From: Apteryx mantelli
Lineage: Eukaryota; Chordata; Aves; Apterygiformes; Apterygidae
NCBI RefSeq assembly: GCF_036417845.1
Contig: NC_089981.1
Location: 9,007,501 to 9,071,500 of the forward strand
DNA: 64,000 nucleotides
Direction: 5' to 3'
The first letter of the stretch is position 1, and every line of letters begins with the position of its first letter. Shown piece after piece: positions 510 through 64,000 of this stretch. A program made the position numbers and the translations under genes. Below the pieces are notes generated by a model that did not search any database, had not been told where the DNA came from, and saw nothing but the letters and a program-made list of their open reading frames with translations.

Positions 510-531
510 TATATATATATATATATATATA
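510..531. repeat. (TA)n microsatellite, copy A only
   Basis: About ten AT dinucleotides. At the same place in copy B (about 55428-55492) there is non-repetitive sequence, so the repeat has replaced roughly 45-50 bp of the ancestral segment in copy A. Confidence 0.85.
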
Positions 532-669
532 ACTGATGATATTATCAACAAACGTTGAAAAATGGAAACTTTCTCAACCATCTTTCTTATTTCGAATCCC
601 CATTTTCAAACAAATAGATAGGGTCCTAAAACTTTCTCAGCTCTGTGGACATGCTATGATCGTGCTTTG

Positions 670-683
670 CCACCAGATGGCGA
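670..683 (+). promoter_or_regulatory. Possible CTCF-like motif, copy A
   Basis: The bases CCACCAGATGGCGA resemble the core of the vertebrate CTCF consensus (CCASYAGRKGGCRS). The motif is identical in copy B. This is a motif match by eye only; a single 14-base match has weak predictive value. Confidence 0.3.
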
Positions 684-697
684 AGGCACAAACCTGA

Positions 698-2679: not shown

Positions 2680-2705
2680 TTTTATTTATTTATTTATTTA
2701 TTTTT
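2680..2705. repeat. (TTTA)n microsatellite
   Basis: About six TTTA units in copy A; the matching site in copy B (about 57641-57661) is shorter. Ordinary slippage variation between the duplicates. Confidence 0.8.
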
Positions 2706-3617: not shown

Positions 3618-4041
3618 CAGCAGCCAGCTTATCCTCAGTGCTGAGTTCTTCAGTTTGAAAGGCATTGCACTACAATAAGGTTAGAGCTCATGTTCATGGG
3701 TGGGGGCAAGTGGTATGTCTGCATGGTCTGACATCATTGTGTGAAAATAGTCTGGGATGCCAAAGGTCTTTGCAGGACAGGGGACTGAACTCTCTATTTC
3801 CAAGTCTGTAGGCAGCAGCCCTCACTTGGGTCTGTGAGTTGACACATATGGCGGAGGTGGGCTGGAGGTATTCTTGATCTTTGATCTCGTAGGGAACATG
3901 GCAGTGGAAAATAGGATTTGGGATCCTTAATGGAACTATGGCATGCTTGTTGGGTAGGGTTTAGGATAAGAGTTGCACTGGCAGACTTGAAGGGTTGGCT
4001 GACAGGCTTCTCGGCAGTTGAATTTTGTTGCCAAACCTGAA
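3618..4041. other. 424-bp segment present in copy A, absent from copy B
   Basis: Copy B joins base 58560 (pairing with 3617) directly to 58561 (pairing with 4042). No target-site duplication or terminal repeat is visible at the ends in copy A, which favours a deletion in copy B over a transposon insertion in copy A. Confidence 0.85.
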
Positions 4042-5827
4042 AGGAGGCCACAGAGTTGTGCAGGGACAGCCCTGAAGAGCTGGAATTCACTACCCGCTGC
4101 TAAGGATACAGAAAAACACAAGGACACAATTGCCAGTTTGGGGAGGGGCTGTTCTTCCTTCCCTGCCCCACTCCTTCAGTGACCACCTCCATTTATGCCC
4201 CACTGAAATTTTCCAGGATTCTGCTCTGTTGGGGTCTTGGCAATTTTGCTGCCTTTACTTAGAAACACAATCTTTCATTTAATTTTAGAATAAAGAACAT
4301 TCTGAGGGAGCCTAGCAGGGAGGATGGAGCCCACCTGCAATGTGAGCTGCAGGGAGGGATTATTCCCTTGCAACAGAACTACCTCAGAGCATCTTGTCTC
4401 TATGTCTGAAACACAAATGGCCATGAAAGAAAAAAGGATCGTTCTCAGCCCCATGTCTGAAGGCAGCAGCTAAGTCTGTAATTGGCCTGGGCTCATAACG
4501 AGCATCCTTAGTTGGACAGCTCAAGACCTGACAAAGCTCATTAATCCCACTATTAGTCAAAATCAGATTGCTTTGATGGCATTACTCCAGGAACATAGTC
4601 CTGGTGTGGCATGAGAGGTCTGAACAAAGCCCTTCTCCACACAAACACTTGCCCCTCTGATGCCTACATAAACCCCATAGTGATGGCTCCTCAGGTATAA
4701 GGCTAACGACCCTCGGTGGAAGCACCAGTCTGCAGGGTTACACAATGCAGTAGCATGCGCAGTGCAAAGAAGAGGCCTAAGCAAATCTCAACAGCAGTAT
4801 GGCATGCATAAAAAGACTTTTCCTCTCCTTCCGAGCTTTCTATTTGCTTTGAGATCCAAAGCTAGGATCGAACGAGGCAGGGGCTGCCTGACACAAAGCT
4901 TCATTAAGCCAAAAGGCATCCTCCCAGGACTCCCTTTGGCTCCTGCATCTGCAGAGCTCTGGGGATACCCATGAATGGACAAGCTCTGCTGTGAACACTG
5001 CGGCTCTCCAGATTTCATATGGGCGGCCCCCTTTGCCCACAACATTCCTTGCCTGCTATTCAGAAGCAATGAACTGCTAAGAGGAACAGTGCTGGCTGGT
5101 GCTCAAATGGGTGTAAAGGCTGCCAGGTGAAAGCCAGTCTGCTGGTTTTGGAGACCACAAGTCATCACTTTGACTGAGGGATGAAGGACACAGAAGTGCA
5201 CCCCTGCACACTGGCACCATCTGGTCCCAGCTGTCTACATGCTCACCTCTCAGCCCCACTCCCCCCTGCAAACCTGGCCTTGCTCATGTCACGCTGCACA
5301 CTCCCTGCACGGGCTTTTCACAGAGGCCACGGTGGCAATGCAGTAGGCAATGTGGGCATGCCTGAAAACCGAGGGGTGCCTCTCCTTCCACTTCCCACCC
5401 CCGGGCTGGAGCCTGGCATTCCTGACAAGCATGAAGCCTGAGCACTGTGCCATGGCGTCCAACCCTGCCACATGACATGTCCCCATGACTCACCAGCAAG
5501 TGTCAACACACGTGCCAGTGGGCCAGAGGAGGATGAGGGAATTCCTGCTTTTGGGGCACAATTCCTCCTGCGCCAGCTTCTTCATGCCCAGGCACCTCCT
5601 TCACACCGCAGAGCATCTGCAGCTCCCGGGGCCCCAGCCAGTGCTTCAGGCAGAAGGTCCTGCCTCCTCTGCAGAGAGGAACAGCAGGGGCTGATGTGGA
5701 GGCTACTTTCTTGGGGGCCGTGCTGTCAATGCCCCTGGCAGAGTCTCAGGAATGGAGGCCAGAGTGCACGGTGCTCGAAATCTGCCACAGTCACTGCCCC
5801 TGTGGGCCCCTGCTGTGGAGGTTCGAG

Positions 5828-5965
5828 CTGGGGCCATGGGGCAGGAGGTCTCTGTGTTGGGCTCTGTGGGGCACCGGGACAGAGCTGGGGCCTTGGGGCA
5901 GTGAGTGGCAGCTGGGGCCATGGGGCAGGAGATCTGGGCTGGGGCCTTGGGGCAGGGGGAAAGAG
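5828..5965. repeat. G-rich minisatellite, copy A
   Basis: Imperfect repeats of GCTGGGGCCATGGGGCAG and GCTGGGGCCTTGGGGCAG, interspersed with spacers of variable length. Long open frames on both strands here (for example minus 5703-6254) come from this composition and are not genes. The runs of four or more G could form quadruplex structures. Confidence 0.8.
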
Positions 5966-6234
5966 CTGGCCGGGGCTCCACGGGGGCAGGTGCCATGTCT
6001 CCCTGGGCTGAGCCGTGGTGCCCCATAGCAGCCCTGCTCCCAGCATGCCGTGGGGATGCCCCAAGGCATGCTGGGAGTGTGGCTGCCGCCAGCCCAGCCC
6101 TGGTGTGGCAGAGCCGAGGTGCTGGCACCCTGAGGGTGCTGCCTTCCTGCCAGCTTAAAGCCATGGGCTCTATGCAGCCAGTGCGTCGCTGTCTGCTTTC
6201 CGGGGGCGTGCAGTCGTGTGCCTTGCAGTCTCCT

Positions 6235-6600
6235 CGATCGCCTCCTTGGCACACTCCAGGCTCCTTTGTGCGACCTTAGATCCCTTCTCCATGCATGCGC
6301 TGATGCTCTGGTCCCCTCACACCTGCTAAAGTCTCCTCCAGTCCTCTCCCTGCATCCTCAGGTTCCTTCTGTTTCCCTCCGTGAGCACCTGAGCCCCCTG
6401 CTTTCCCCGCCCTCAGCACTCTCCTCCCTTCTATTTCCCCCAAGGCTTCCTCTGATCCCCTCTGTTGCTCGCCACGCGCACCCTCAGCCCCTCCATTCCC
6501 TTCCCTCTGTGCTCCCGTCCCCTCCATTCACCTCCCGGCATGCTCGCATCCCCTCCCTTTCCCCCACTCACACTCACTTCCCCTCTACAGCTTCTCTCTT
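6235..6600. repeat. Pyrimidine-rich low-complexity tract, copy A
   Basis: A long C/T-rich stretch of loosely repeated CCCCTCC, TTCCCTC and CACTC words on the plus strand. It is repeated in copy B at about 60755-61120. No coding or RNA gene is supported here. Confidence 0.7.
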
Positions 6601-8803
6601 CTGCAGGCAGTGCTGCTGCCAAAGGCACCGTGCCCCTTCCACAGACCTCTGCAGCTGGAGAGTTGGGGCGCGGGGGTCAGTAGGAACTCAGCTCTGCTCC
6701 CACTGTCTCGCTCACTCCATTGCTTCCTTTGAGGCTCCCTCAGATTTGCAGGGCGGAAAATAATGTGCAGGGGATGCCTTTCGGGCACTCGGTGTAAAGC
6801 CACTCTGCTTTCCATGCAGCCATCTCAGCTATCTGTTCTGCTTCTGCAAGGGGTCTCTCAGCCTGCAGTGCTTACCAAGCAGGTGAGAAAGCAAAGACCT
6901 CAGGCATCGTTTCCTTCCGAAGAGGCCAGAGGGCCGGCCGCTCCTCGGACCACCCTCAGAGCAGACTGAGAAGTAACCAGAGAGGGTCACCAGAATGTAC
7001 TGTGTGCAGGCATTATTCCCGTGCCTCGTTTGGGTGTGTGATACTGCACTGTCACGCTGTAGATGGGAAGCTGCTCTCAGTCGCCTCCACTGGGAACCCA
7101 AGCGGTGGGATGGCACTGCGAGTGTTGCAGGCTCCATCTGAGCATCACATTTTTCTTCTGCAAAACGAGTGACTTTAGAATGGATATGGGCTTTGGGCGC
7201 TCCAGTGATAATCTCCACCTGGCGCCACCCTTCTTTTTGTTTTGCCCTGTTAGGATCACATCTTCAAACCCCCCCCAATTAGAACCCACCCCAAGACCAG
7301 GATTCCCAGACCTCATCTCTAATGCAGAGAGAATTTAGTGCCAAGGGAGAGAAATGACCTTTCCAATAAGCGCTTTTATTTTTCTTGATTTTCCCAGGCT
7401 TTGACACCGTTTGGAGGCATTCATGGTGGATTTGCCTTAACACAGTTTTCAGGGTGAGAGAGCAAACCCCTCTGCTCCTTCACTAGGCCATGCCATCTCC
7501 ATGCCTGCGGCCTAGGGAAGCAACAGCTAGGACTTGGCCCTTCCTCCCCAGAGGCTGAGATAGTGCAGTCACAGTCTTCCTCTTCATTCATCCACTTGCT
7601 CATTTAGGCCTTCCTTCCTGAGCAGAGCCTCTCCTTGCCAGCAGTTGTAGCCCCGCAACCCTGATCTGGGGACATTGCGGGAGTGGCATGCCTGAGGTGA
7701 GCCCCAGCCTGGGGGACCCCTCCTGTGGCTCCCCATGCCCCCTGCTGTCCTTGGGGAGTGGGCAGTGAGGTGCGGGCAGCTCCCTAAAGTGCCCCAGGCA
7801 GCTCCCCTTGCCCTTGCAGGGCCCACCTTGGCAGCACCTGGGGGGTCAAGGGGTCCCTGCAGCCCCTCTGTGACATGGCCTGGGGCATCACGCAGTGCAT
7901 CGCAGCAACAGCTGCGCCCTCCCCATATGGCCCTGGCAGCCTGAGCTGAGCCCAGGTGCTTGGGGCTGCTCTCGCCACAACTCTGCACTGGCCTGCCCTG
8001 CTCTGCTCTGGAGCAGCTGCTGTGCAGCGAGCAGGAGAAGGCGAGAGGAGGTGGTGGGACAGTGCGAGACGCTGTTTGGTGACCTTCCCAGCAGGTCGTT
8101 GGAGAGGAGCGTTTCTTCCTGCCACAAGAGCTCTTTGGACTAACTCGGTAGGCTGGGAATTCCCTCTGTGCCCCTAGGGAAGTCCTCGGTACTGCTGGGA
8201 ATTGCTGCCTGCGGGAGCCCTCCATAATATGGCGCTGTCAGGGCTGCAGAACTTGCACGTTTAGAATCTTTGCTCCCCGGCAGCGCGTCCACCCCTGTGT
8301 TACTAGTCCCTTGTCAGCTGCGGTCATAGGACCTTTGGTCCTCGCTCCAATAACTCTTTCTTCCTTTGCCGCTGTCACACCTGTGGTCCTTGGCACTGTG
8401 GAGCCAACCTGGTTTGACAGGAGTGTTTTGGAGGTGGACAGTCATGGCTACTGGAGTCTTTGAGCACTGGGAAGGTGCATGAGAGGAGCACTTGTAAAGG
8501 TGCTTCGTGTCTGAAGAATTTGCAGACGGCTCCTGTGTATTTCCCTGTTGCTGCTGTCTTTTTGGTTTTGGATCATCTTTCCAACCAGACCTTCCAACTT
8601 CTGCCCCTCATGTCTGTGGGCTCAGTAATTTACGTATTCTCTTGTGAACCAAACGCTTGCTTCACTTGCAGGAGATTTACCTTGTCTTCTTCAGCAATTT
8701 TCTTTGCCTGAGAAACTTCTGCAAAAGTAAAGAGCTTTACTTCTGTGCTTACAAAAGTTCATTTGTGGTTCATATGCTCTTTGAGTTCAGGTTCTGAGGA
8801 AGA

Positions 8804-11800
8804 ATGGACCTCAGGCAGACTGAGCGAGTCCTTGCAGAAGTCAAAATGACTTTACCTTACTCCTTTTCGGTAAGTAATGGATTTCACACAGCACAGTGAT
8901 GCCAGTGCACTTTTCGCTCAGCTGAGAAGAACTTCCTCCAAAGTGTACCACAGTCTAAAAGAACCTGTACCTTTGCTCCCTACAGGCACGCTATAGCGTG
9001 AGAGAAAGGAAGCCTGTTGTATGCTATCAAGCTCCACTGGAAAGTAGGTTATAGGCGCAGCTTCTCGGAAGGGCTAATCTCTCGTGTAGAAGGGGGATAG
9101 AAGATGTTAAACAAAAATGTAGCTACGCACAGCGCAATCAGAAACTATGTCTAGGTTCTGTAACTGTAGGGCCATCAAAGGACGGTGGACACCAAGAAGG
9201 GGAAGATGGCCAAGATGCTCACAAGGAGTATAACCTTCGGCACAGGAATACTGTTGTCCAGTATCAAGAGCCTTTGGAATGTGGGTTACGCGCGCAGTTT
9301 GTCAGAAGGGCTGATTCCTTGTGCTTAAGGGTGGGAGCTATAAGTTCTTGAATGAAAACGTGCATATGCAGAGACAAACAAGAAATGATGACTTGGTACT
9401 GTAATGACAGGGTCCTCAGAGGACGATGAAGAGCAGGAAGAGGATGACAGCGAAGATACTCCAAAGCCATCTAACCTTCGGCAAACTGCTGAAGACACTC
9501 AAGCCCCACTGGAAGGTAGCCTATATGCAGAGCCTCTCTGAAGGGCTAATTTCTTGTGCAGAAGTGGCATACACGTTGTTGAATGAAAAGCTATACGCGC
9601 ACAGACAAATAAGAAGTTCTCGCTAGGTTCTATAATCATAGGGGCAACACAAGAAGGTGAAAGCCAAGAAGGGGAAGATGGCAAAGATCCCTGCAAGGAG
9701 TATAACCTTCGACCCAGGAAGACCATCACGTACTTCCAGCATCCACTGGAAAGTAGGTTCCATGCACAGTTTCTCGGAAGAGCTGATTTCTTGTGGATAG
9801 TGGGCTAGAAGTTGCTAAATGAAAAGACATATACCTCCCACCCAACCCCCCCCCCCAATACCATTCATTTAAATTCCTTGCCTTCATTCTGCAGGTAAAA
9901 CTCTCCCTTTGGGATCGAGATGCCTGTATCCTGCGCACACTGCAGTTCTTGGCCAGTGTGCATGCTCACTGCTGCTTTTCATTTCTTCAGGACCATCTTC
10001 TCCTGACAGGCAAAGGGCTGCTCCATCGCAAAGGCCATGCTGCAGAAGAACAAACAGGTTGGTGTACGGATAGTGATAGTTCTCAGGGATCCATAGTGGT
10101 GCCACTCCCATCACTCAGTAATGCTTGAAAAGATTTTCCGATTGATGGCCGTGATGGGAAAATCGCAGCATTGTAGCTGGCACAGCTGGAGGGTCTAGAG
10201 GAAGCAAGGCTTTTCCTTTGGGAGAGAAGATAACTTTCATTAGCCCACAGCTTTTAAAAAGGCAGGATTTGGGGGTCAGCGATGAGATGATTGCGGATTG
10301 TCCTGGCTGAGATTGGGGATCTGCAATTCTTCTGTTCTGCACTTGAAGCCAGAATCCCCTTCCACAAATTGTCATTAGACGATTTCATCGTGCAGTATAA
10401 AAATGCCCACCTGCCTTTCTTCACGCTTGCATAGTGAACGCCAATCAAGTCTAGGGAATATTTCATGGTTTGGGAAGTTTATGCCAGTGTATAAGCGCTT
10501 CTGCACTCACTTGCCAACATGAAAACCACAGCAATCCCGCTAACTGCATGTTCAGTTAGAAAGCCCCTTTCCCTTTCTCCTCCATTCACATCTGGTGTCT
10601 TCCCCAAAGCTCTGGGAAAGACGAATTCAACGCAAAGCACGTGGATGGAAGGAAAACCGGAAGCACCCTGCCAGAAGCTGATCCAGTGCAAATCCAGAGT
10701 TCGGTAAGCAGTGGTAACTCATTGTGTCAGTGGGGACTTTTCCAGGGGTCATGAAAACCTTCCCTACTGTGCTGCCAACAGCTCCCGGGCTTCACGCTTT
10801 CCTCTCAGGGAACTTCAAGATCGTCCTGAGCCTTTCCTTTGTGCTGGCATAGGAAGAATTTGGAGGAAGCCTTTTTTTTCCAGGTGGCAGCTTTCTCTGG
10901 CCTCTGACATGTCTTCTGTTGCATGTCTCTTTAGGTATGCTTTGATGGTGTGGGTGGTCTCTCTCACCACATTTCAGCCTTAAAGGAGATGGTGCTGTTC
11001 CCACTGCTTTACCCAGAATTCTTTCAGAGATTCCAAATCCGACCCCCCAGGTAACGGGCAGTGCATTCGAACTACAGAGCTAACTGCTGCAATATGCTTT
11101 TCAACATGAAAAGTATTCTCCTTTTTTTTTTTCTTTTTTTTTTTTTTTGGAGGGGCAATATGTCAAGACGTAATGGTTAGCTTTATATATTCTTGGCCAA
11201 CAAAGCTTGACTCACTGGATGTTGAAATATGACTTGAAATCCTTCCCTTTCCATACCTTTAAAAGTGTGCAAATCTTCAGATGCTTTGCTGCTTTGGTCA
11301 CAGGAATTCCCTTTTCTGGCTGATGTTTTAAGTAGGGTGTGGAAACACAGAAGACCTTTTTTGGCCTCCCAGCTGAAGGCTTCCTCCCCAGTGCTTCCAA
11401 CAAATTCTGGCAGGCACAGTCCAAGAGACTCCAACTGTGGCAGGGAGAAAGACAGGCTTTGCTCGCAAATCTGTCTAAGACGGGAAGTGTTCTGGTTAGG
11501 AGGGAAGGCCGCTTTGCTTTCACAACGGGGGCTGTCATGGGCATTTTCCATGTTTTTGTTGTAGCTACGTACATCTCTTTTTTTCATGTTGCAGAGGCTG
11601 TCTGTTCTATGGCCCACCAGGCACTGGAAAGACACTGGTGGCTCGAGCGCTCGCAAATGAATGTAGGCAGGGAGACAAGAGAATAGCATTCTTCATGAGA
11701 AAAGGTGCCGACTGCCTCCGTCAATGGGTGGGAGAATCCGAGCGACAGCTGTGCTCATTATTTCAGCAGGTAAGGAGGAAATGCGCAGCAGGTTGGGTCA

Positions 11801-14800
11801 GAGTTGGACCTCTACTTTTCCGGGGTGGACGTCTTCCAGGAGGACTTGGCCTCTTGGGCAGTTTGGCAGTGTCTCCTGTTGAGAAGGGAACATCAGTGTT
11901 TCCTTTTCCCGTGCCGTGCTGCTTTGCCTGAGGGGCTGGAAATCTTGCAGATGTTGGGTCCAGCACAGTGCCAGTGCCTTTGCAGCCATAATGTTTATCC
12001 TGCATGTGCTCGCTGCGTGGTGCTCTGTTTCACATACGTCAGTATGCCTGCACCTGTACTTCCCTTCCAGGCCTATGAGATGCGGCCTTCGATTATTTTC
12101 TTTGATGAGATCGACGGTCTCGCTCCTGTGCGCTCCAGTCGCCAAGACCAGATTCACAGGTACTTCTTTTCGCTTCCATCTCCATGTCATCTGCTTCATC
12201 TCTAGGAAAAGAAGACCCACCTGCTTCCCTTTATAGGACACACCCACACACACCCACACTCTGAACTCGAGTACAACGACACTGAGCTTCATAGCAGTTT
12301 AAAGGCAGGAGTTGAAATCAGGTCACTAAGCTTGGTGTCCAGACAAGGTCTCTCTCGAGACCTTGCCTCGCTTTTTCTGTCTTACCATGAGTCCTTTCGC
12401 TAACAACAGCTCATCCAGAAAAGCTTCTCCTTTCTGAGCAACGTGACTTTGGAGAAAGTCATGCCAAAGGTAACAACAGCTACTAACATTTTTTTGGTAG
12501 TTCTATTGTCACAACACTCCTGGCGCTTATGGATGGCTTAGACAGCAGAGGAGAGATCGTGGTCATTGGAGCCACCAACAGGCCAGACTCCCTGGATCCT
12601 GCTTTACGAAGGCCTGGACGCTTTGACAGGGAGTTCCTTTTCACCTTGCCAAACAAAGAGGTAAGGCTGTTTCGGCAACCTTCCTGCTACTGGCACAGAA
12701 CCTTGCTTGACAAGAAAACCGGCTTACCCCACAGCATCTCCGAGAGCGAGCAAGGAAACAAGTGGCATACGTGCTGCACAGCTCCCGGTTCCCCACACAG
12801 AACTGGCAGGAAGGCTGCAAACAGGAGTTTCACTCCGCCTGGAGCACATGGACATTCTTCCTTGCCCAAGGGCTTGCTCTTTGCTTAGTTAGTGAGTCCA
12901 CCTAGGCTCTTGCCTTCTGAGGTTGCCACCTTGTTCTCAGTTCTCCAGTTGGGAAAGCCTCGGGGGAAAACTTGGGCTTGAGTGTGGCCGGGCTGGGAAT
13001 CCTCGGAGCCGCCCATAAGCATTTAGGGAGCTGACATTGTTACTGGTATTAGCAGGGAGCTCAGGCTCTTTTTCTTTCTTTCTTTTATTATTTTTTTTTT
13101 TTCTGGCTACCCCAGATTCTTTTGTCTTTAGTTCACATTTTGTGGGGAAAAGGACAAAAAGGTTATTGGATTGAAGGCTAGTAAAAATGCACAACACACT
13201 ATACTGGACAGAAACAGGAAACACTTCACTGAAGCTCTGGCAAAGAGCAGCGATGAACATAGGCACAGCTTGACATTTGCTCGTTCAAGGACAGCAGCTG
13301 GAGTCAGAATTCTTGCTCCTACTACTGTACTTACTCTTCCAATCTACTTGAAAAGTACTGAGCTTTGAAAAGCAGGCAGTGTGTTACTAGAATGTAAACA
13401 TTTCTTAATTTTAGCAGAGGAAGACAAGCAATTACGGGAATGTGACGGGGGGAGGGGGACTGCGCATTGCTTATTTTCTTTTTGAGAAAGAGGCTTAAGA
13501 CAAACCACAGTGTGACCACCTGGTTTGTAGGCTCGAAAAGAGATTTTCAAGATCCACACCAGAGACTGGAGCCCTAAGGCCCTGGACGCACTGCTTGAGG
13601 AGCTTGCTGAAAAATGCGTCGGTAAGATGACAAAACGCACCGAGTTCCTGCCTGTGCCTGGCTCCTGACAGCGTCTGAGCTTGTGCCAGGCAGTACCCAA
13701 GCTGCTTCTGTCTCCTTGCCTTCCCTTGCCTCTGAGAACATGGAAGGCTCTGGGGGGCGTCTTCCTCAGGAGCTAAGGTTGGCTCAGAGGCCTACTTCCG
13801 AAGCACAGGCTGTAGGGCGCTGGGCCTCCCGTAATGCAAGCTCCCCATCAGGGCACTGCTCTGCAGTGCAGGAACTCTTTTGCCATTGCCCATGAAACTC
13901 TTCCCCTTTGGGCCACATGCAAAGACTTTGAGAGTGTCCCTCAGCAAAGCCTGTCCTTGACTGCTTTCTGCTGCCTGAGACTGACATCCCTTTGGATTCT
14001 GCTCTTGTTGCTCAGGATACTGTGGGGCCGATATTCAAGCCCTCCGCGCTGAAGCTGCCCTCTGTGCTTTGCATCGACACTATCTGCAGATCTACACAAG
14101 CAGTCACAAGCTGCACATCGATGTTGCTGCCATTGAAATCACAGCAACAGATTTTCTTGTGGCTATGCAGAAGACTGCACCAGCTTCACAGAGGGCTCCA
14201 GCTTCCCCTGGACAACCACTGCCACCCTTTTCCAAGCCACTGCTTCAGAACACGCTACAGAGACTCCTAAAAGGCCTGCAGAGGGTATTTCCCCATGCAG
14301 CACTTGCACTCCAGCAGGACCAACAGCCAGGTAGGGCTTCACTGCCTTCACTGCCATAAAACTCTCCCAAAGCAAACACTGCTAGTTTGTGCAAGCAACA
14401 GAAACAAACCTTTCAGTCAGGAGGAGGTGAAACTGAATGGTAGAGAGGGCAGAGCTGGGAACTCCTCCCACTTCACAGTACAGAACTCTATGTTCTCCAC
14501 GCAAGCATCCAGTTTCCGAAGGCTGTCAGCATCATCTGTCCCGTTTGCAAGGAGAAAAGGAGCTTTCACCGCTAGCAAAACATAGCTTGCGCAAATCCAG
14601 ACACTTAGGAGAGCTCTGTAGAGACTGAAGGCTTTGGAAAATGGCATTCAGCGTATGCCCCTCAGACGAAGAAATACAAGGCCCCAGGTTTCAGCTCACA
14701 TTTAGAAGCTGTCTTAGCACAAGAGAAGGTTGCAGACTCTTCGGGAAAGTTAACAAGCCTCTCTTGCCTTCTCATGGTACCACTCATTTCTTAGAAAATG

Positions 14801-17800
14801 ACTGCATGGACAGTGATGAGGAGTCACCTTCTGGTCCTGAAGATGAGCCGTTTCCTCCAAGGCCTGGCCAGCAAAAGCAAACCTTCCTTAACTGTAACGG
14901 GTAACTGCCCGTGTCCTTTCATTGAAATTCTTCTGATTGCTGGGACTTTCCAAGCTGTCGTGGCCGTTGCAAGTGGGAGGGGCGTTAGATGAGGGAGGAC
15001 AGAAGAGTTAGTCCAGGGTGCTTTGGTATCAAAAACTGCAAGCAGGAAGCACGGAGATATAACTAGGTGCTACAGTTGTAGGACAGCAAGTAGCTCCAGC
15101 CGATCATCTGGAAGGAGACAGCCTCCTTTCCTCCACCAAAGACATCCACAGACAATTAGGCCAAAGAAATATGTTGTCTCTCCTCTTAGCTAAAAAAATG
15201 CAACGTGGGTTTGTGGAGTCACCTAGCTTCCCAGATTGGGAATGCAGGAGTGACTCACTTCGTAGGAAGAAAATTGAGGAATGGCCGGCTAAAAGGGCAT
15301 AATAAAAACCCTGCAAAAAAGGCTTCATTTGCGATCTTTAAGCCACTATGCTTACATTCATATTTTGATATTGCAATGGGAAATTAATTCAATCCCACAA
15401 TGGAGAAGTTAGCTTATGGGGTCCCAGCTGCGTCAGTAGTTTTTCTCACTCTCTCTTACCGTGCTGCTCAGGAAGGCTTCTGACCCACAGAACTTGGTCC
15501 AGTCTCTAGGCTCCTTGGCCCTATCCAGAAAAGGTCCTGCAGTACTGGGATGGCAAAAAAAAAGAAAAAAAAGGTGCTATTCACAGATGTATTCCATGAT
15601 AACAGAGCAAAAACCACGAGAAAGTTGTATTTGCAATCTAGGAGAGAGCACACAAGGAAAGATGAAACCAACTGAATGAAGGAATCTAATAAATATCCTC
15701 CAGTTCTATGTGTTTTGCACTTTGTTAGATACAGCTAAGGCCTTTCAGAGCCCACGGCATTTCTTTTCCCAGGAGGGTTCTTCTGCTCCTTCCTGACCAC
15801 CTTCTCCATTTCCAGTGGACCCCCTGCACCTAAACTTGACCAAGGCAGAGGCCTCAAGGCTGCTCAGTCAAGACATCCTGAACATAAAAGCCTCACAGCC
15901 GGGGGGAAGAGATCCAGACCAGTGTGTGCTGGACAAAGAACGACACCTGGAACATCTGTGTCTTGACTGATCACTTCCTTTGCAAACTTCTTGTTTTGCA
16001 GTTACGCTCCTAGCAATGCTTGTTGCCAGCCAGCATGTCACAGGCCCAGGTTCTTAATCGCTGGAGAGCCCGGGTACGGGCAAAGTTCCCACTTGGCGCC
16101 TCCACTAATACACGCGCTGGAGAGGTTTGCGGTTCACGTGCTGGACCTGCCGGCTCTCTTTGCTAGCAGCACCTCACCCGAAGAAAGATGCGCACAGGTA
16201 CCTCTTCTCTCTGCAATCTCACAGGATGAATAGACTCAGGGGAAGCAGGCAGACCTCCCGCGGTTAATGGTGGTGGCCTGGCTTTCCTCTGCTTCCTGTG
16301 GTGTTTATTTCGCGCTGAAAGAACACTTTTCTTGTACGCTGAACAATGCAGAAGAAGGACGTTGTGCATGAGCATCTTTTCCATTCCAGGCTAAACAGTA
16401 AGGATGTTGCTAGCAGCTCAGGGAGCTCCAAGACGCTCTTGATAAAGCCCTCTGCATGGCAAGAGCTGCTGCTCATGACAGTGGGCTCTCCAGAGTTGTT
16501 TCCCTTGCCTCTTCAGGCTCTGCAGCTCCCAGGAGGCGCCTCTGCCTCAGCCTGACTGCATGTCATGCCCTTTCTCTAGCCTCCCTCTTTATAACACTGA
16601 AATGCAACCCAGGCTTGGGAGGGGGGAAGAAAAGGGTTTCTCTTCTCTCATCACACCGCAGGGAAGAGGCAAGAACACACTTGCTGGATTCGAGCGGTGT
16701 AGCAGTGGCCCCAGGCTGATGTGGACCCTGCTGAAGGGCTGGGCCTGTTTTTTCAAGCACACTGCCACTCGCACCGGGCGTGAGGCTCTGGGCGAGTTAC
16801 CTGACATCTAAGCAGTTTGGAAATCAGGCAGAGATTCAGGCCTGCCTCTCGCTGTGTAGCTATGTCCAAGGAGTTGGGTCCAAGCAGCAATGTTACCTTA
16901 TTCTTGGTGGCTTGTTTGGACGCTTTGTCTTTGTGCACTCCCGTTTTGCAGGCAATTTTGATTGATCCATTGTTGTTCAGCAGCAGCCTCTGCTACCCGC
17001 TTCAACAGTCTTCTCCAAACTTCCTTTTGACTAGTTGATCCGAGAAGGCCAGAGGACAGCACCGAGCATCCTTTCTATTCCACATATCCATGCCTGGTGG
17101 GAGGCTGCTGGACTCACCTTGAGAGCTACGCTCACAACATTACTAGAGGGCATTCCAGCATATGCTCCAGTGCTGTTGCTCGCTACGTCGGATGTTTGCC
17201 ATGCAGATCTCCCGCCGAGGTATTTCTCTCACTGCCTTCCCGGCTTCTTTCAGTCTCATGTTAATTTATCACTCCATTAAGCACCCAAATACTGTGCTCT
17301 CCTAAGCCATTCAACACCGGCATTACTAGGGCACCCTGCTGGCATCTCTTCCCTCTGCAGTTGCCACAAGGCTTCAACCTGAAGGGCAGCAAGGCAAGTA
17401 AATCCAAAACAGGCAACCTAGGAGATGCTCAGTGTCCTCCCTTGGAGCACTGGAACCTCGGGTCGCTTCACAGAGCTTTAATCCTAGAGGTGTTCCTTAA
17501 AGAAGATGCCCTAAATTGCCCTGCTGACCCAATACAATCTCGCCTTTAAGGCCAAGAAGCAAACTTGTTCTAGTCTCTCCCTTATTCAAAGCATTCCTCA
17601 GCTTCACTGGAAAAGGAATTCATCTTTGTGGAGCAGAACACAAATTTGGGGGGGGGGGCTTACGGCTGCGCTGTCTTTTCTCCTCCCACCTCAGGTACGA
17701 GCTTTATTTTCTGAGCTTTACGGAGAAGTTTTCAATGTCCAGTCACCTAGCGAGGAGGAAGGGAGAAAGTTTTTCGAGGACTTGCTTGTCCAGCAAGCTG

Positions 17801-19965
17801 CTAAGCCTGCTGCACCACAAAAGAAAGCAGGTGAGCCTATTCTACAAACACAGCGTTGCTATCTCTAGCTTAGCAGCCATTCGGCATTTGCTTTGGTAAT
17901 AGATTTCCTGGCACGAAGGTTTACTCTGCTTGTGTCTGAGTATCATCACTTGGCTAACCTTTTCTGGTTGACTGAAGCTTGTCAGGCATGGGAAGTCCTC
18001 CTGCCTGTGGCATCACCACCTGAGCCTCGACTGCTGACAGAGGAGGAAGAGAGGCAGCTCGAGGAGCAAGGGGATGAGACATGGCCAGCGGTGCCTGCAG
18101 AGTCCAGTACACCCCTCTCTACTGGCAAGTCCTTTCTTCCTTTTTTCTTTTTTTCTTTTTTCCTTTTTTGGATAAGGTGCCAATGACATTGATATCTTCC
18201 CTCTTGTCATGGCATAGCTGCTTTTGCTGATGCCGGTGGCTTTATGCCAAAGGCATTCCATTTCCAAATTAGGTGCAGCATGTGAGGTCAGTCCCCAGGA
18301 CAGTCACTCAATGTGCTTATGAAATAAAGCCCAGCCACAGAGCTTGGCTCACACTGTAAAACACTGGCCTCGATGGCCCCGCAACGGCTAACTCCTCAAA
18401 CGTAACATGTTGTTTAGAGCAGTTGCTGAACACTCCACAAGTTCTTATGGTAATAGGAAACAGTGAGGATTTTTCCTTTGCTTTTGCTTCCTTTTTCTCT
18501 TCCTCTCCCTCTTGCCTTCCTGCCCGCCACCCCCGCACCAAGTCATGGCCGTCTGTCTGTGAGGCCTAGGCAACCTCTGCTTTTGGAACACAGGGGAAGG
18601 AGAGCTTGTCTCCAAAGACTTTTCTGCTTCTCACCTCTTGTACTTCCTGTGATGAGAGACGAAGCCACCTGAGCTTATTACCCTGCTTTGTGCTCATGCC
18701 TTCGGTCTACAGTCTGCTCTGTGCACAAAATCTTCAAGGGCATTCTTTTATGCATGATATAATCTAATAGTTCTTGCGCTTTTTAATTCTAATAACAATT
18801 GGACCCCCTTCGCTTGCTGCCCTCTCTCCCTCAACACATGCATGTAGTGAGCCAGCACAATGGTACTTCAGTCCCTCTCACCATTTCCCTTGTGCACCAA
18901 GTAAGACGACGGTGCTAGATTGTGCAGACAGAACTGCTTAGCTAATGCTTTGGCTTGCTTTTTCTCCTATCTCTGTGCAGCTGCCTGCAGACAAAAGCGA
19001 AGGAGGAACGCATCGCCCTCAGAGAGCCTAGCAGAGAAGAGGAGGAAATGCTCACCCCCTGCTGAGAAGGAAACCAGCATCTCTCTCAGGGTAGGTTGGA
19101 GCTCACTGATCCACCTTTGCTTCCCGCTCTGCTGACGACCCTTGAGGCAAGAGGGCCTTTGCTGTGGCAGCCGCTGTCCTTTACTACAAAACGGGCCATG
19201 GCAGTTCCCGCTGTTCTCAGAGAAGTTCACTTGCAGTTAGGATCATGGAGGTGATAGCCTGAGGAGCAGCACGATGCTAGCTGAAACTGGAGCCTTGCTT
19301 TTTCTCGCAAGTCGGACACAGCAGCTCATTTCCTCCATGGAAATCTGCTGCGATATTTAGTCTGTTCTTGGACGTTTCACTCCTTCTTTATTTAGCCATA
19401 CAAGGAAGGAGGATGCGAGTTGTGTGGGACCATTTTCTTTTGTGTCTGAACACATCGAGAGCCTATTCAAATGATCTCGTGCTAACGCAAACTTGTACTG
19501 TCTCCCTTTTTTCTTCAGCAACTGCTGAATGTCGTTGGCGACGCAACAAAGCACTGCAACATCCGCCACCTCGAAAAACTACACCTGGTGCTCAGCCAGT
19601 GTGTTTACCGCCATCGGCAAGACGATGACAAAACGCAGTTGATAGAGGTACTTTGCTTACACAGCACTTCCTGTCACTGTTCTGCACTTCTTCCTTGTGC
19701 ACAGTGGATATCCTGCTTATTCGCTATTCCTCTTTCCTGCTTAGCAGTCCGTGTTACATACGAGTTGCTGACTTCCACCTGGAAGGCATCTACTCAGACT
19801 TTCACTTTATACAAAGCAGCTAGCTACAGGATCTTACATTTCTATTCCAGCTTATAGCAAGTTTGCCTGTGTTTAGGTGGCAATTATTATTCCTTTTTTA
19901 TCTTTTTTTTTATCTTTTTTTAGGAAATGAAGGAAGAAATTGAAAACTTCTCCCGTGCTCAGTAA
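8804..19965 (+). CDS. ATAD2: ATAD2-like AAA+ ATPase gene, bromodomain missing (21 exons, possibly disrupted)
   Basis: Exons placed by similarity to ATAD2 and by GT/AG sites: 8804-8869, 8986-9043, 9170-9280, 9411-9515, 9642-9752, 9991-10057, 10610-10703, 10935-11050, 11595-11769, 12071-12159, 12501-12660, 13531-13621, 14016-14330, 14795-14900, 16002-16197, 17035-17219, 17695-17830, 17978-18124, 18981-19090, 19519-19647, 19924-19965. They total 2609 nt (about 870 codons), against roughly 1390 residues in human ATAD2. ATAD2 proteins are nuclear AAA+ ATPases that act on histones and chromatin through two AAA domains and a bromodomain. Here AAA1 is intact, AAA2 is degenerate as in the family, and the bromodomain exons are absent. 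The start at 8804 follows an in-frame TGA, but exons further upstream are possible. All junctions agree in phase except 17219/17695, which is off by one base. The sequence around the end of AAA1 is closer to ATAD2 than to ATAD2B as I recall them. It is either a young functional paralogue or a pseudogene early in decay. Confidence 0.85.
8986..9752 (+). repeat. Tandem array of four related ATAD2-like exons
   Basis: Exons 2-5 share the module that in ATAD2 sits between the acidic region and AAA1. Their ends read [49 protein letters not shown] and [17 protein letters not shown], three of them behind an acidic, Gly/Gln-rich lead. Exons 3, 4 and 5 are 111, 105 and 111 nt, all phase 1-1, so adding or losing one keeps the frame. 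The introns also resemble each other (for example a TCTCGGAAG/GTCAGAAGGGCTGAT-type stretch after each donor), which shows duplication of roughly 240-bp genomic units. Confidence 0.85.
10935..14330 (+). other. AAA1 ATPase domain exons of the ATAD2-like gene
   Basis: Exons 8-13 encode a complete first AAA module: Walker A GPPGTGKT (exon 11595-11769), pore-region residues near [10 protein letters not shown], Walker B IIFFDEID (12071-12159), sensor-1 GATNRPD and arginine-finger segment RRPGRFDRE (12501-12660), then the helical lid with YCGADIQAL (14016-14330). Every catalytic motif used for ATP binding and hydrolysis in this family is present. This argues that the domain was under selection until recently. 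Phases 2/0/2/0/1/1 join cleanly. Confidence 0.9.
16002..17830 (+). other. Degenerate AAA2 domain exons, with a phase break
   Basis: Exon 16002-16197 carries a Walker-A-like [10 protein letters not shown] lacking the catalytic Lys, as is normal for AAA2 of ATAD2. Exon 17035-17219 carries the PHIHAWWE and LLLATSD segments; 17695-17830 carries [13 protein letters not shown] and the FFEDLL segment. The middle exon ends after two bases of a codon while the last must start on a codon boundary to keep the family sequence, so one base appears to be missing near DLPP at the exon end. A weak alternative donor at GAT|gtttgc (about 17194) would restore phase at the cost of eight codons. Confidence 0.75.
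17978..19965 (+). other. Post-AAA linker and C-terminal tail without bromodomain
   Basis: Exon 17978-18124 follows ATAD2 through the LEVLPVAPPPEPR-like linker (here [14 protein letters not shown]) and an acidic EEE stretch, up to where the bromodomain should begin. It then diverges and stops at a GC donor (ACTG|gcaagt). The next exon, 18981-19090, is a basic KRRR/EKRRK segment. Exons 19519-19647 and 19924-19965 match the family C-terminus ([16 protein letters not shown], then [10 protein letters not shown] and stop TAA at 19963). The 856-bp intron between shows no bromodomain remnant in any frame I read. Confidence 0.75.
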
Positions 19966-20111: not shown

Positions 20112-20559
20112 GCTCATATCAATCCTTTTAAGCTTTCTTACTGGCTGTTTGTTGCTGTTGGTGTTCCATACCTATTGCGTATACATACATGATCTGTTGA
20201 CATCGAGGTGTTTGGCCTTCCTTTCGCATGTGCATTGCCTGAAAGTCTCGTGCCTGGCATTTTTAGGAGACCAATGGTCGTCAGTGCCTTTGACCTACAC
20301 ACATCTGGACGTCTTCCAAGTAATCTCAGTGCCTCTCTCAAAAGAAAGCAACGGAAAACTCGACCATCTTTGCCCAAACGGTGACAGGCGGTTTTTCTGG
20401 CGTCGCCTGGGCTACTGCCTATGCCATTGTCATTTAGGCAAGGTTGCAAGGCAGCGCAGAGGTCATTCTTCTTCGGACCTGCTCGCGCCCCCAGGGATTC
20501 TCAGAGAAGGAAAACAAAGCTGCAGCAAGCGTCGGGGAGGAAAACTCTTCCCCAGGCAG

Positions 20560-21290
20560 CAGCACTTTGCTGTGCTCGGGGCGCCCCGCGCCCGGGCACG
20601 TCTCAGCCCGCAGCGCTGCCTGCTGCCCGCCGCCCCCCCCAGCAGCTCTCCTCCGCCCGCTCGGCGGCAAGGGGCGCTCGCGCTCTCTCGGCCCCTCGCC
20701 TCGGCCCCGGCCCCCCTTCTCAGCCCGCCAGTGCCCCCGGCAGCCGCTCCACCGCTGGGCACGGCTATCCCGGCACAGCTCTCCGCCCGGGCGGCCGAGC
20801 CGCGCTGAGCCGAGCCGAGCCGAGCCGAGCCGTGCCAGCCCCCGGCTCCCCCGGCGCCCACCCCCGCCCGCAGCGCCCACCCGGCCCCCACCCGCCGCCA
20901 CCCGCCGCGACCCCCAGCGCCGCCGGCAGCCGCGCTCCGCGCCGGGAGCCGCCCTCGCGGCGGGAAGCGCCCCCGAGCCCCGCCGAGGCTGCGAGCCTGC
21001 CCAGGGCTGCAGCGCCCACGGCGCCCGCTGCCCCCGCACCCTCGCCCCCGCCGCGCCTGTTGCGCTCTCGGCTCCGCGCAGCGGCCCCGCGCCCCGACGC
21101 CTCGCCGCCCGGCGCCCGCGCTCTGCCCCGCCGCTGCCCCGGCCTGCCTCGCCCGGCCGCAGCCTGTGCTAGCGCGCCCCGCAGCCGCGGCGCTCCAGCC
21201 CAGGGCGCTGCTCTTCCCCAGCGCTCTCCTGCTCGCCCCGCCGAGGCTCAGCGCCCTCGTCACGGATGCGAGCAGCGTGTTCATTGCACT
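20560..21290. promoter_or_regulatory. CpG island with (GAGCC)n repeat
   Basis: About 730 bp of very GC-rich, CpG-dense DNA beginning about 450 bp after the ATAD2-like poly(A) signal, with a GAGCC pentanucleotide run at about 20804-20832. Open frames of 200-440 codons on both strands are products of composition. An island like this normally marks a promoter. The next plus-strand locus is the MRGPR pseudogene 3 kb away. It could serve that locus, an unseen transcript, or an antisense transcript into ATAD2. Confidence 0.6.
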
Positions 21291-24200
21291 GCTTTAAAGG
21301 CTTGCATCTGGCATTGTAACACAAGAAATCGGCTTGGGGCAATGGTAACTCCCTTGCCAGGCTTGCTTGCCTGGATCGGCAGCGGTTATGGGCCTTCTTC
21401 CCAATGGAGAGCTGCCAGAGGCTGGTCACAGCCTGCCCTTCTGAGCACAGATCCAAAAGCTGCCCTGGCAGATGGCCGTTGGCAGACGTCCATCGCAGAG
21501 CAAGCGGCCGTGGGAGCGTCGTCTTTCTTTTCCTGCTTCTGCCCGCTGCAAACAGAAATCAAGCAAACAGCAGGCAAGAAAATCAGGAGGAGAGAGTGCT
21601 CCTGCCCTTCCCCTTTGTGCAGTGCAGTGCTGTGCGATGCAGCAGGAAGAGCCGAGAGCGAACAGCTGAAGGCGCCACACACACTTTACCGCAGACTTTG
21701 GAGAAACTCCAAGGCAGCTAAGCACTTACGAAGGAAACAACCACCCGAGCTGTAAAACTGTGAGCATCCCTCAAGGGACACAGCCTTTGCTGATCTGGTT
21801 TTACATTTGACTCACTGTGTCCCCTCAGAGAGGGCTGCTGCCCAGGCGCTCCTGCTCCTCCACCTCTTCTACCCTTTCACTTGAAAAGCCCTCCCTCCTG
21901 CTCTCTCTCCTTGCTGCTAGCACTGGTGTCGAATGGTAGTGCTCCGAGTGGGGCTGCTGCTTGCCTAGGTGCTTGCCCAGCACTCCCTGGCAGGGCAGCG
22001 CTACCCAATGCAGTGCACTTGCCCCGGACGACAGGAGCATCAGTGCAGCCCTCTGTGGCTTCAAGAGGTTCCGAAACCTCTTAGCCTGGGATTTGCACCT
22101 GCATCTTAGGGAGGAGAGTGTGCTGGGAACTGACAAGTATCGACTCTCTGGTGTGGCTGTGTGTTTCCTTCCCCTTCGGAACGAGCAACAGATGAATCCT
22201 CTTGCTGGAGGGCCTTCAAAAGCACTTGCCTCCTCCGCAGAAGGCATCCACAACTGCCCCAGAATGAAATTGTCCCACACCAAGAGGAAGCTCTCAGCAC
22301 CTCTAGTTGTGGCTCAGCACAGGTCCTGGAGAGAGAAGGGTTCCAAGCCATGTCTCTGCAAAATAATTTCTCTTTTCCTGCTTCTGATGCTCTGAAAGTG
22401 AGTATGCCATGACAGCTTCCTCCACATCTGGCCCTGCCTTGCTGACCGTCTCTTCCAAGTTGCTGGCTGTAGCAGAGACTTGGCATGGCCAGAGAAAACA
22501 AGCCCTGCTGCTGCTGGTTCTGCTGGTGCTGCTGCCAAGAGGGTTTCCTTGCTCTGGAGTCCATCTTCACTGCCCGGTGGGACCAAGGGAGGGCATTTCC
22601 ACCTGCTGGCCTGCAAGAAACCTGTCATGCTTACAGTGCAGCCTCTCAGCAGTAAGGGCCACCAGTGAGCAGCATCAGCCACGCAGAAATCTGGGAGAGG
22701 CTCCAGGGAAAAAGCGGAGAGAGCCAAGCATGTGCTGGAGAGACTCCTGGGCCCAGGAAGGAAGCTGTGGCTCTATATCCCGCAGGGAGGTTTGTCCCAG
22801 CGGGTTGTGCTGCATCCAGTGACCCGGCACCTGCCCAGTGGGCCATCACTCCAGGGCTCTCTTAGGCTGCTGCTGCGATCCAGTGAAGCCACAGCCAGGC
22901 ACAAGCAATCTGACCGAGGAAGAGGTGGGGCACGCTGCCCGCCTGGCCTCTCTGCCTCTGCACATGAGACTTCCTTCCAGGCTCCTCCAGGAAGCAAGTG
23001 GCATCTGTCTCCATGCATTCAGATCCCTTCTTCCATCTTCCCTAGCAAAACTCCCCTGCAGCCTCGGTGCGTTTGCTACTCACACAAAGTCCAACACATT
23101 TTTCCCTTGGCTGTCCAGATTCCCCTTTGATTGGTGCTATCCGTCGCGGTGTCTCTGCAGGCAGCAGGCAGCGCCATGGGGTTCCTGCGTTGCTGCCTGC
23201 CAGCTGGCTCCCCTGAGCTCCCCCAGGCAGGGCCAAGTTACTCTCCTGCAGGAGCTGACTGCGATTTGCTAAGATCCCGCATACCAGTGCACTGCAGGAA
23301 TCTGCTGGAGCAAATGGACTGCTCACCTTTGCCTGGCACGCAGGCAAAGTCTCCATGGTCCTGGCACTTCCTATCGTTGACTAGGCAAGAGAACAAAGAC
23401 TGCACGTGGGAAATGCATGTGGTTCTTCATTTTAGAAATCACTGCTTTCCAAAGTCACTCTGCTGGTGCAGAGGGAACTGTAAAGGCACACCATTCTAGT
23501 GGCTTACCTCCAACGCAAGGAGCTTAATTGAGGGAAGTCTGGTCACTCTGCTTGCCCCTGGAGCAGTGATGTGCAGAAAACACGAGGAATCTACCAGGTG
23601 ATGTTTCCATGTAGCACAGGCAATGGACAAAGGCGGAGCTCTGTAATACCAAGCTCTTCTTTTCCCTCTCTCCTGCAAGGCAGCAGAAGGTTTAAAAGTG
23701 CTATCCCACACTGCCAGACATCCTGCAGCAGGCAGGAATCCAGCTGTGCTCATGGCAAGCCGCTCTCTGCCATGTACTCAGTCCTGCTGCTCTACCTGCT
23801 TCCAGCAGAGGAAAAAGCAGCTTTCCCTTTTCAATGGAGGCCAAAGTGAGCCGTGGTGACAGCTAGATGAGGCTGGTGTCAATTTGCAAGCCTATGGCTA
23901 AGCAGCTCAGGGAGCTCTGCATGTTTACACATGGGCTCTCTGCGCCCGGAGGAGGCTGTGGACTTAGGCAGATCTTGTGGGAGCAGCTCTCCATTGCTCT
24001 TGGGACTCTCCAGGACCCCTCCTTTTTGACATCCCCTGTTTGCAGTGATTCCACCCCATCCGCACCGCTCTCTGTCTCTCTTTTTCTCCCAGATGTCTCT
24101 TGCCCCGAACCTCCAGCCTGTCTCCACCTCTCCCTGCTGCCCCAAGACAGGCTCTTTTCAGGCCTTTCCCGGTTACTCACGGGGGGAGGTGTTCCTTCCC

Positions 24201-24354: not shown

Positions 24355-24752
24355 ATGGTGGACACCAACACAACAGCCCTTTCTCTGAGCTACACGGCCA
24401 CAGGATACACAAACTCTCAGAGGACTGCAGAATCTCAGTGCATAAGAGATTACAGAGCGGTGATAATTTCAAGTGTCTCTGTGTGTGCTAGTGGGGAACG
24501 GGATGGTTGTGTGGTTCCTGGGCTTTCACATGAAGAAGAGCCCCTTCACCGTCTACATTCTGAACCTGGCCATCACCGACTTCTCTTTGCTCCTCTTTCT
24601 TCTTGTTATATTACCGCTAGACATGGTTATAGAAATCTCTTGTTCTCCATTATATAACTATATCTTTTCCAAATATCTCCTGATGGATCTGTTTCTCCTG
24701 GGGTACTTTACCAGCATGTATCTCCTGGCAGCAATGAGCATGGAGAGGTGTC
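24355..24752 (+). pseudogene. MRGPR-like receptor pseudogene, 5' part
   Basis: The ATG at 24355 opens an N-terminal tail with sequons (NTT near residue 4), typical of Mas-related GPCRs. Around 24470-24480 the family sequence moves into another frame by a one-base shift and continues through TM1-TM2 ([34 protein letters not shown]) to the TM3 end AAMSMERCL. It is cut there by the CR1 insertion. The frameshift, the insertion and the missing TM4-5 make it non-functional. MRGPRs are small class A receptors of sensory neurons and immune cells. Confidence 0.8.
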
Positions 24753-63329: not shown

Positions 63330-64000
63330 ATGGACCTCAGGCAGACTGAGCGAGTCCTTGCAGAAGTCAAAATGTCTTTACCTTACTCCTTTTCGGTAAG
63401 TAATGGATTTCACACAGCACAGTGATGCCAGTGCACTTTTCGCTCAGCTGAGAAGAACTTCCTCCAAAGTGTACCACAGTCTAAAAGAACCTGTACCTTT
63501 GCTCCCTACAGGCACGCTATAGCGTGAGAGAAAGGAAGCCTGTTGTATGCTATCAAGCTCCACTGGAAAGTAGGTTATAGGCGCAGCTTCTCGGAAGGGC
63601 TAATCTCTCGTGTAGAAGGGGGATAGAAGATGTTAAACGAAAATGTAGCTACGCACAGCGCAATCAGAAACTATGTTTAGGTTCTGTAATTGTAGGGCCA
63701 TCAAAGGCCGGTGGACACCAAGAAGGGGAAGATGGCCAAGATGCTCACAAGGAGTATGACCTTCGGCGCAGGAATACTGTTGTCCAGTATCAAGAGCCTT
63801 TGGAATGTGGGTTACGCGCGCAGTTTGTCAGAAGGGCTGATTCCTTGGGCTTAAGGGTGGGAGCTATAAGTTCTTGAATGAAAATGTGCATACGCAGAGA
63901 CAAACAAGAAACGATGACTTGGTACTGTAATGACAGGGTCCTCAGAGGACGATGAAGAGCAGGAAGAGGATGACGGCGAAGATACTCCAAAGCCATCTAA
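63330..64000 (+). CDS. ATAD2: ATAD2-like gene, second tandem copy, first exons only
   Basis: Exons at 63330-63395, 63512-63569, 63696-63806 and from 63937 to the window end correspond to exons 1-4 of the gene at 8804. Splice sites and phases are all kept and no stop is introduced. Compared with copy A there are five exon substitutions, all amino-acid changing: Thr to Ser in exon 1; Asp to Ala, Asn to Asp and His to Arg in exon 3; Ser to Gly in exon 4. The remainder lies beyond the window, so whether it keeps AAA1 or repairs the phase break at the AAA2 exons is unknown. Confidence 0.85.

Follow-up and report, generated by a model that had tools for sequence, protein, structure and literature searches.

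How much of the work of ATAD2 needs its bromodomain is a question that might be addressed with a clade of bird ATAD2 paralogues, one copy of which appears to lie in the window, by which we mean the whole 64,000-nucleotide stretch of Apteryx mantelli DNA analysed here (contig NC_089981.1, positions 9,007,501 to 9,071,500, forward strand). A sequence-only reading of this stretch had described an ATAD2 paralogue with an intact AAA1 ATPase and no bromodomain. We assign a probability of roughly 0.62 to the following account: an old clade of bird ATAD2 paralogues lost the bromodomain by deletion, and the window copy is a recently inactivated passenger.

An ATAD2-type exon chain

The ATAD2-type gene occupies positions 8804-19965 of the forward strand. 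Mapping by eye and by script gave 21 exons:

8804..8869, + strand: exon 1, candidate first coding exon (ATG, phase 0, putative start), with a GT donor and an open frame into exon 2
8986-9043, 9170-9280, 9411-9515 and 9642-9752, + strand: exons 2-5, acidic module, matching emu ATAD2 190-228
9991-10057 and 10610-10703, + strand: exons 6-7, basic module and N-terminal linker domain (ADPVQI), by emu ATAD2 tblastn
10935-11050, 11595-11769, 12071-12159, 12501-12660, 13531-13621 and 14016-14330, + strand: exons 8-13, AAA1 (Pfam AAA and lid)
14795..14900, + strand: exon 14, acidic segment separating AAA1 from AAA2, by emu ATAD2 tblastn
16002-16197 and 17035-17219, + strand: exons 15-16, degenerate AAA2; exon 16 ends in phase 2
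17695..17830, + strand: exon 17, end of the AAA2 core, coding in phase 0, by emu ATAD2 tblastn
17978..18124, + strand: exon 18, fusion exon (linker and post-bromodomain segment) with a GC donor; join at about 18084/18085
18981..19090, + strand: exon 19, basic segment fused to the beginning of the C-terminal helices; site of the second missing segment
19519-19647 and 19924-19965, + strand: exons 20-21, C-terminal helices and stop (emu 1255-1311, E 1.6e-13)

All 20 acceptors are AG and 19 of the 20 donors are GT, the single GC donor being that of exon 18. Joining the 21 exons gives a translation of 868 read residues, with a single X marking the one frame break. Its best match among solved structures was human ATAD2 (8h3h, E 1.5e-267), and Pfam matched seven families, among them AAA (E 2.8e-44) and the AAA lid (E 9.3e-11); a bromodomain was absent from the seven. 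Alignment of ATAD2 to the window had been suggested as a check, and tblastn with emu ATAD2 placed the exons consecutively, starting near residue 190 and reaching the C terminus, while leaving the bromodomain region unmatched; coverage has two holes, at about residues 901-1063 and about 1099-1254. Exon mapping, Pfam and tblastn together bear out the proposed ATAD2-type chain over this interval with its complete AAA1.

Exons 8-13 encode the Walker A, Walker B and sensor 1 motifs, both arginine fingers and the lid of AAA1. The window copy keeps the Walker A lysine, the Walker B glutamate, the sensor-1 asparagine and both arginine fingers, together with the gate residues D and L, the pore-loop-1 tryptophan and the pore-loop-2 residues D and R. 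By these residues, AAA1 appears complete, active site included. The second AAA domain is degenerate: exons 15-17 align to AAA2 of 8h3h, and the Walker A site reads GEPGYGQ, without a lysine. By homology, the helices of exons 20-21 would form part of the AAA2 helical bundle, as does the 'C-terminal domain' of Abo1 in the consulted portion of its structural description (PMC6917787). Chain A of 8h3h (831 residues) also aligns to the window protein as if it lacked a bromodomain between EEQEE and YAPSYY; the consulted portion of that paper describes residues 403-1390, with the bromodomain not resolved (PMC10539301).

We found no ATAD2 counterpart of exon 1 (8804-8869), which is also present in a second tandem copy (63330-63395). 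Most copies among exons 2-5 end in a motif resembling YxLRxRxxVxxYQxPLE, and positions 8986-9831 consist of exon plus intron units of about 236 bp in tandem; four copies are in register, lying 235-237 apart in one family and 231-241 apart in another. Exons 2-5 look like a tandem duplication of an exon–intron unit. By eye, rhea (Rhea pennata) predictions carry this module in varying number and in another reading frame. Profile searches of the window found neither the N-terminal approximately 190 residues of ATAD2 (best E 1.8) nor its acidic C-terminal segment (best E 1.5), and an Rfam search gave no match.

The bromodomain was lost by a deletion within exon 18

The sequence-only reading had the chain pass from a linker exon (17978-18124) directly to a basic exon at 18981. 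The exon order stands; the bromodomain is missing through a join inside exon 18 rather than through an intron that bypasses it. There the ATAD2 linker is joined directly to a match of emu PVVPVDSSTPLS (residues 1064-1075), and emu ATAD2 has 162 residues between the two segments so fused. In a scan of 80,102 stop-free 12-mers from six frames of the window, the 12-mer at 18085 was the only one to score 48 against emu PVVPVDSSTPLS, a segment chosen after the alignment, and the next best scored 28. Exon 19 was the best match of a post-bromodomain profile (E 0.022). As both sides of the deletion lie inside exon 18, the bromodomain was lost by deletion and not by skipping; the join rules out loss by exon skipping only.

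A profile HMM search of 18125-18980 had been proposed as a check, with bromodomain exons in the intron as a finding that would overturn the idea. No such exons were detected in the 64-kb window. A profile built from 17 ATAD2 proteins and run on 2573 six-frame pieces gave a single bromodomain match, at E 0.48, in the same olfactory-receptor region where tblastn of the emu bromodomain (residues 902-1058) against the 64-kb window had its best hit (E 0.73, reverse strand). In the same HMM run, an AAA1 profile, a positive control likewise split over exons, matched six pieces at E 2.6e-33 to 8.6e-05. A bromodomain hidden in the intron at 18125-18980 or elsewhere in the window thus went undetected by both methods.

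An assembly gap is an unlikely source of the loss, as the identical join occurs in rhea and ostrich (Struthio camelus). It was found in 6 of 127 proteins from two ATAD2 searches, all from these two birds: rhea P0001, P0003, P0004, P0005 and P0121 and ostrich P0006. The rhea P0009 and P0122 models lack exon 18. A Pfam bromodomain is not listed for any of these eight (P0001, P0003-P0006, P0009, P0121 and P0122).

An old clade of bromodomain-less paralogues

We considered the best 120 of 7986 matches in a homologue search with the window protein. Among those listed, the closest relative was rhea P0001 (86% over 79% of the query) and the second by score was tinamou P0002, which has bromodomains and repeats; more rhea copies and ostrich P0006, all bromodomain-less, came next, and then bromodomain-bearing ATAD2. 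These best 120, in which cluster members are hidden, contained no bromodomain-less Apteryx protein, and no ATAD2B name appeared among them. A search with the tail of rhea P0003 matched 12 of 760 candidates: seven bromodomain-less rhea predictions, five of them with the join, and five bromodomain proteins at 33-35% coverage. As it missed ostrich P0006, it may have missed others.

In the tree, six rows (window, rhea and ostrich) form a clade at 100/100. Within it, the window copy, rhea P0001 and ostrich make up a 100/100 group whose sister, also at 100/100, consists of the rhea copies on a 38.6-Mb contig. The shared join and the tree place the window copy, as judged from sequence, in a bromodomain-less rhea and ostrich clade. 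The deletion is old, since the join is common to rhea, ostrich and the window and its carriers belong to one well-supported clade; by these comparisons the domain loss is genuine as well as old, and the deletion would predate the split of the ostrich, rhea and window lineages. The claim of an ATAD2 paralogue with AAA1 and without a bromodomain is thus confirmed, and extended to a trait that the three lineages share. Among the titles and abstract openings, mainly open-access, that were listed in a literature search on ATAD2 paralogues, birds and bromodomain loss, we found no report of this clade.

The age of the duplication itself is less firmly placed. When the tree is rooted by eye on reptiles, the clade is placed outside bird ATAD2 (90/90); in an AAA1–AAA2 tree, which contained no ATAD2B row, it joins bird and reptile ATAD2. 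Grouping it with palaeognath ATAD2 was disfavoured (AU p 0.031) in a test for which that grouping was named after the first tree, with long branches in the tree and with Eudromia and Engraulis excluded. A duplication preceding crown birds is only suggested, and the position outside bird ATAD2 could be a long-branch effect. The tree rejected passerine or crane duplicates as products of the same event.

The assembled window copy has a frame break at the exon 16/17 junction

Exon 16 reads ..CHADLPP with two bases left over (phase 2), and exon 17 needs phase 0. Rhea and ostrich predictions read through the point where the window is broken, and rhea P0001 is continuous there (LPEEVQALF, HADLPEEVQALF). 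With the canonical exon 16/17 junction, the first stop falls in exon 18:

18035-18037, + strand: first in-frame stop in exon 18, with three junctions downstream

A stop upstream of three exon junctions normally triggers nonsense-mediated decay, so the mRNA should decay. The sequence-only reading had missed this break: the exons do run to the C-terminal tail as it described, but the frame is not open over all of them, as it is broken at exon 16/17, and the C-terminal helices of exons 20-21 are encoded downstream of the break.

The break concerns a single base-phase in a single assembly and may be an artefact of assembly. The main competitor of our account builds on this: the window copy would be a working gene for a bromodomain-less AAA+ chaperone, and the break either a mistake in the assembly or circumvented by splicing. 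We regard this as unlikely but deserving of real weight. Every other junction is in frame, the 868 codons read contain no other stop or frame break and the catalytic residues are intact. Frame-keeping splice pairs also exist on paper; we examined the 12 best, scoring donors and acceptors with simple, approximate matrices. Pairs that use the exon-16 donor have acceptors scoring 2.6 or lower, comparable to the weakest in the gene model (2.5 for exon 7, 1.4 for exon 4 and -0.3 for exon 18). The other pairs need donors scoring 1.2 or lower, below all 20 model donors, the lowest of which scores 3.9, and the regular exon-17 acceptor, at 10.8, would compete with the weak acceptors.

Past constraint and possible recent relaxation

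We compared how often variable sites and sites that are invariant across 17 ATAD2 proteins have changed, using the protein sequences of the relatives and excluding positions at which the two remaining family rows differ. The ostrich lineage (8/276 invariant against 30/160 variable sites changed, p 4e-8) and that of rhea P0001 (5/273 against 13/143, p 0.0013) are clearly constrained. In the window lineage invariant sites have also changed less, as the working-gene reading would expect, but the contrast is the weakest of the three (10/278 against 13/143, p 0.024), and several of the ten window-specific changes at invariant sites are radical. Total differences at invariant sites are alike (window 38/295, rhea P0001 34/296, ostrich 34/293), which argues that the window lineage is not grossly decayed. 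Window and rhea P0001 are identical at 219/237 positions in AAA1, 144/157 in AAA2, 27/35 in exon 14 and 112/148 in the linker and tail.

In neutral simulations from the window's own coding sequence, run with no indels, 29 of 300 runs were stop-free at 95% identity, 6 of 300 at 93% and 1 of 300 at 90%. Because such runs are rare and the exon 16/17 break is the only one seen, inactivation is recent or absent. Between the two tandem copies, 5 of 299 bases changed in the early exons and 7 of 372 in introns, and all five exon changes are replacing, none silent; the early exons compared are acidic and may evolve fast anyway. This intron-like rate, with replacements only, further weighs against a working gene. 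Taken together, the window lineage was constrained for most of its history and possibly relaxed lately. The window copy is probably dead or dying, probably as a young pseudogene carried in an olfactory-receptor duplication of about 54.5 kb.

A more sweeping alternative, which we judge distinctly improbable, is that the entire bromodomain-less clade is non-functional and was carried along in olfactory-receptor duplications, the proteins predicted in rhea and ostrich being products of pseudogene annotation. These proteins are gene predictions, and some look damaged: rhea P0001 has lost one arginine finger (RRPGPFD) and by eye its tail runs into first-exon sequence of an apparent next copy, ostrich P0006 reads by eye into the exon-18 intron, P0121 is missing a stretch that follows the AAA1 core, exon 18 is absent from P0009 and P0122, and the predictions begin at different places. 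Against this, P0003 and P0004 span from before AAA1 to the C-terminal end, the rhea 38.6-Mb rows tested (P0003, P0005 and P0121) retain the motor residues, the ostrich and P0001 lineages are constrained as described above, and each of the six pairs compared shows higher conservation in AAA1 than in the exon-14 and tail segments. Some of the rhea copies have the appearance of intact bromodomain-less AAA+ motors.

The sequence-only reading had also wondered about a dominant variant or a new target. For the window copy neither a dominant variant nor a new target is supported, given the break near the end of AAA2 and early exons that are unconstrained between tandem copies; the rhea relatives, whose predictions cross the exon 16/17 junction, still allow either. 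That a truncated window protein poisons ATAD2 hexamers as a dominant-negative is very improbable: the open frame before the break does span AAA1 and most of AAA2, but the AAA2 bundle would be incomplete and the message is expected to decay.

A tandem array with olfactory receptors

The window also bears out the proposed tandem array, with one further copy visible at its end. Positions 1-9474 and 54919-64000 are a tandem duplication at an offset of about 54.5-55 kb, the blocks listed being 94-99% identical, and the repeated unit contains the ATAD2-like gene together with olfactory receptors:

63330..64000, + strand: second tandem copy, exons 1-3 and part of exon 4, cut by the window end (659/671 identical, no gaps)
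33439-34449, + strand: OR4S2-like open frame (nearest receptor from Apteryx mantelli, 92%)
37787-38812, + strand: related receptor copy, 75% identical over 300 bases (Pfam match ends at 230 of 280)
51510-51956, - strand: olfactory-receptor fragment

Contigs of identical length, 70,164,132 bp, are listed for rhea P0001 and for the rhea OR4S2-like receptor P0149; with the OR4S2-like frame of the window, this makes the ATAD2-like and receptor neighbourhood look old. Tinamou P0002 (Eudromia elegans) has two bromodomain-bearing repeats fused to an apparent olfactory-receptor start, and the neighbourhood may exist in tinamou too. One Apteryx olfactory-receptor cluster has 70 members.

The window holds other elements. 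An endogenous retrovirus remnant at 39684-42891 (- strand) contains a gag-like open reading frame (Retro_M and Gag_p24_C) flanked by two 240-bp direct repeats that are 98% identical. At 24467-25555 (+ strand), a 7tm_1 receptor fragment (E 2.8e-7) runs into a LINE-like reverse-transcriptase tail, which we take by eye to be a CR1-type LINE. Directly after the gene, at 20385-21755 (+ strand), a 456-residue open frame lies in GC-rich sequence (63% GC at 20-22 kb); it had no Pfam match.

A proposed motor without its histone-reading tier

We propose that the window locus is one copy of an old bird ATAD2 paralogue clade whose bromodomain was lost by genomic deletion. The deletion would have removed the bromodomain and the acidic linker that follows it, shortening the loop between the halves of the AAA2 bundle. 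AAA1, AAA2 and the C-terminal helices should still fold, because in structures of the ATAD2 family the bromodomain is an insert that separates one half of the AAA2 helical bundle from the other; the consulted portion of the Abo1 paper describes it as sitting on two linkers that leave and re-enter that bundle (PMC6917787). An intact member would then form an AAA+ hexamer that retains its ATP motor, along with the pore tryptophan that grips the substrate, without the upper, histone-reading tier. The window copy itself would be a recently inactivated passenger in an array of approximately 54.5-kb blocks with OR4S2-like receptors, as its broken frame and neutral-like early exons suggest.

An AlphaFold2 model of rhea P0003 had a mean pLDDT of 60.6 and a pTM of 0.42, with the AAA2-core and C-terminal-helix blocks mostly at 72-92 pLDDT. 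Foldseek placed 8h3h first, at an rmsd near 17 Å and a TM score of 0.34 by query length. The model, weak overall, supports the fold of the parts, not the assembled shape.

In the consulted portion of the human ATAD2 study, crosslinks to H3/H4 fall in AAA1, the bromodomain and the C-terminal linker, AAA2 and the C-terminal domain are described as an inert base, and H3/H4 on the bromodomain and C-terminal linker are proposed possibly to release an N-terminal lock (PMC10539301). The clade has lost the bromodomain and apparently the C-terminal linker, with the motor kept. An intact member would presumably not be recruited or switched on through histone binding to the bromodomain and linker, and a motor without a histone-gated switch would be coherent. 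In two of three rhea 38.6-Mb rows the lock residue, D415 by counting, is replaced by alanine, although a small insertion leaves the alignment there unsure. The pore-loop-1 lysine is replaced by Q or E in all six clade rows and is K in all 26 other rows, and the adjacent tryptophan is kept in every row aligned. As aligned here, the Abo1 counterpart of this lysine is K344, reported in the consulted portion of that work as the top-scoring crosslink to the H3 tail (PMC6917787).

Tentatively, and at odds clearly short of even, we suggest that palaeognaths, perhaps the bird ancestor, evolved an acetyl-blind ATAD2 motor lacking the bromodomain, the histone-binding linker and the pore-loop-1 lysine. 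Several rhea copies, possibly germline-expressed, would have a new substrate or no histone-gated on-switch, and the window copies would be decaying in the receptor array.

A lineage that lost the bromodomain and C-terminal linker while its motor stayed under constraint would amount to a deletion experiment carried out by evolution on what ATAD2 needs its bromodomain for. The clade also suggests that evolution can cut a bromodomain out of the middle of the AAA2 bundle. Drug design against ATAD2 targets the bromodomain, as described in the portion of the human study consulted (PMC10539301). The functional interest now lies in the rhea proteins and their kin, not in the window copy.

Comparison with known systems

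The window gene resembles ATAD2 (ANCCA) in its AAA1 motifs, degenerate AAA2, C-terminal helices (encoded downstream of the frame break) and segment order. It differs in that the bromodomain, the N-terminal approximately 190 residues and the acidic C-terminal segment were not found in the window, the clade's pore-loop-1 lysine is replaced and the window copy is frame-broken. Among birds, 6 of the 8 rhea and ostrich 'ATAD2-like' predictions carry the join, and those in the tree fall in the window clade. Passerine ATAD2-like proteins (Empidonax, Geothlypis and Serinus) still have the bromodomain, and in the tree they fall with passerine ATAD2 (Vidua). Crane ATAD2-like P0091 has no listed bromodomain and groups with crane ATAD2 (100/99), which makes it a separate event or an incomplete model.

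Of the architecture of bromodomain AAA+ proteins (ATAD2, Abo1 and Yta7), the window has AAA1 and a degenerate AAA2 but no detected bromodomain. In the consulted portion of the Abo1 study, the bromodomain mutant E900A shows no histone loading (PMC6917787), so a bromodomain-less enzyme might fail as a histone loader. Abo1 of fission yeast and Yta7 of budding yeast share the two-AAA architecture and were foldseek matches of the rhea P0003 model; unlike the clade described here, both keep a non-canonical bromodomain tier for histone handling, according to the consulted portions of the studies on them (PMC6917787, PMC9898759, PMC8410769).
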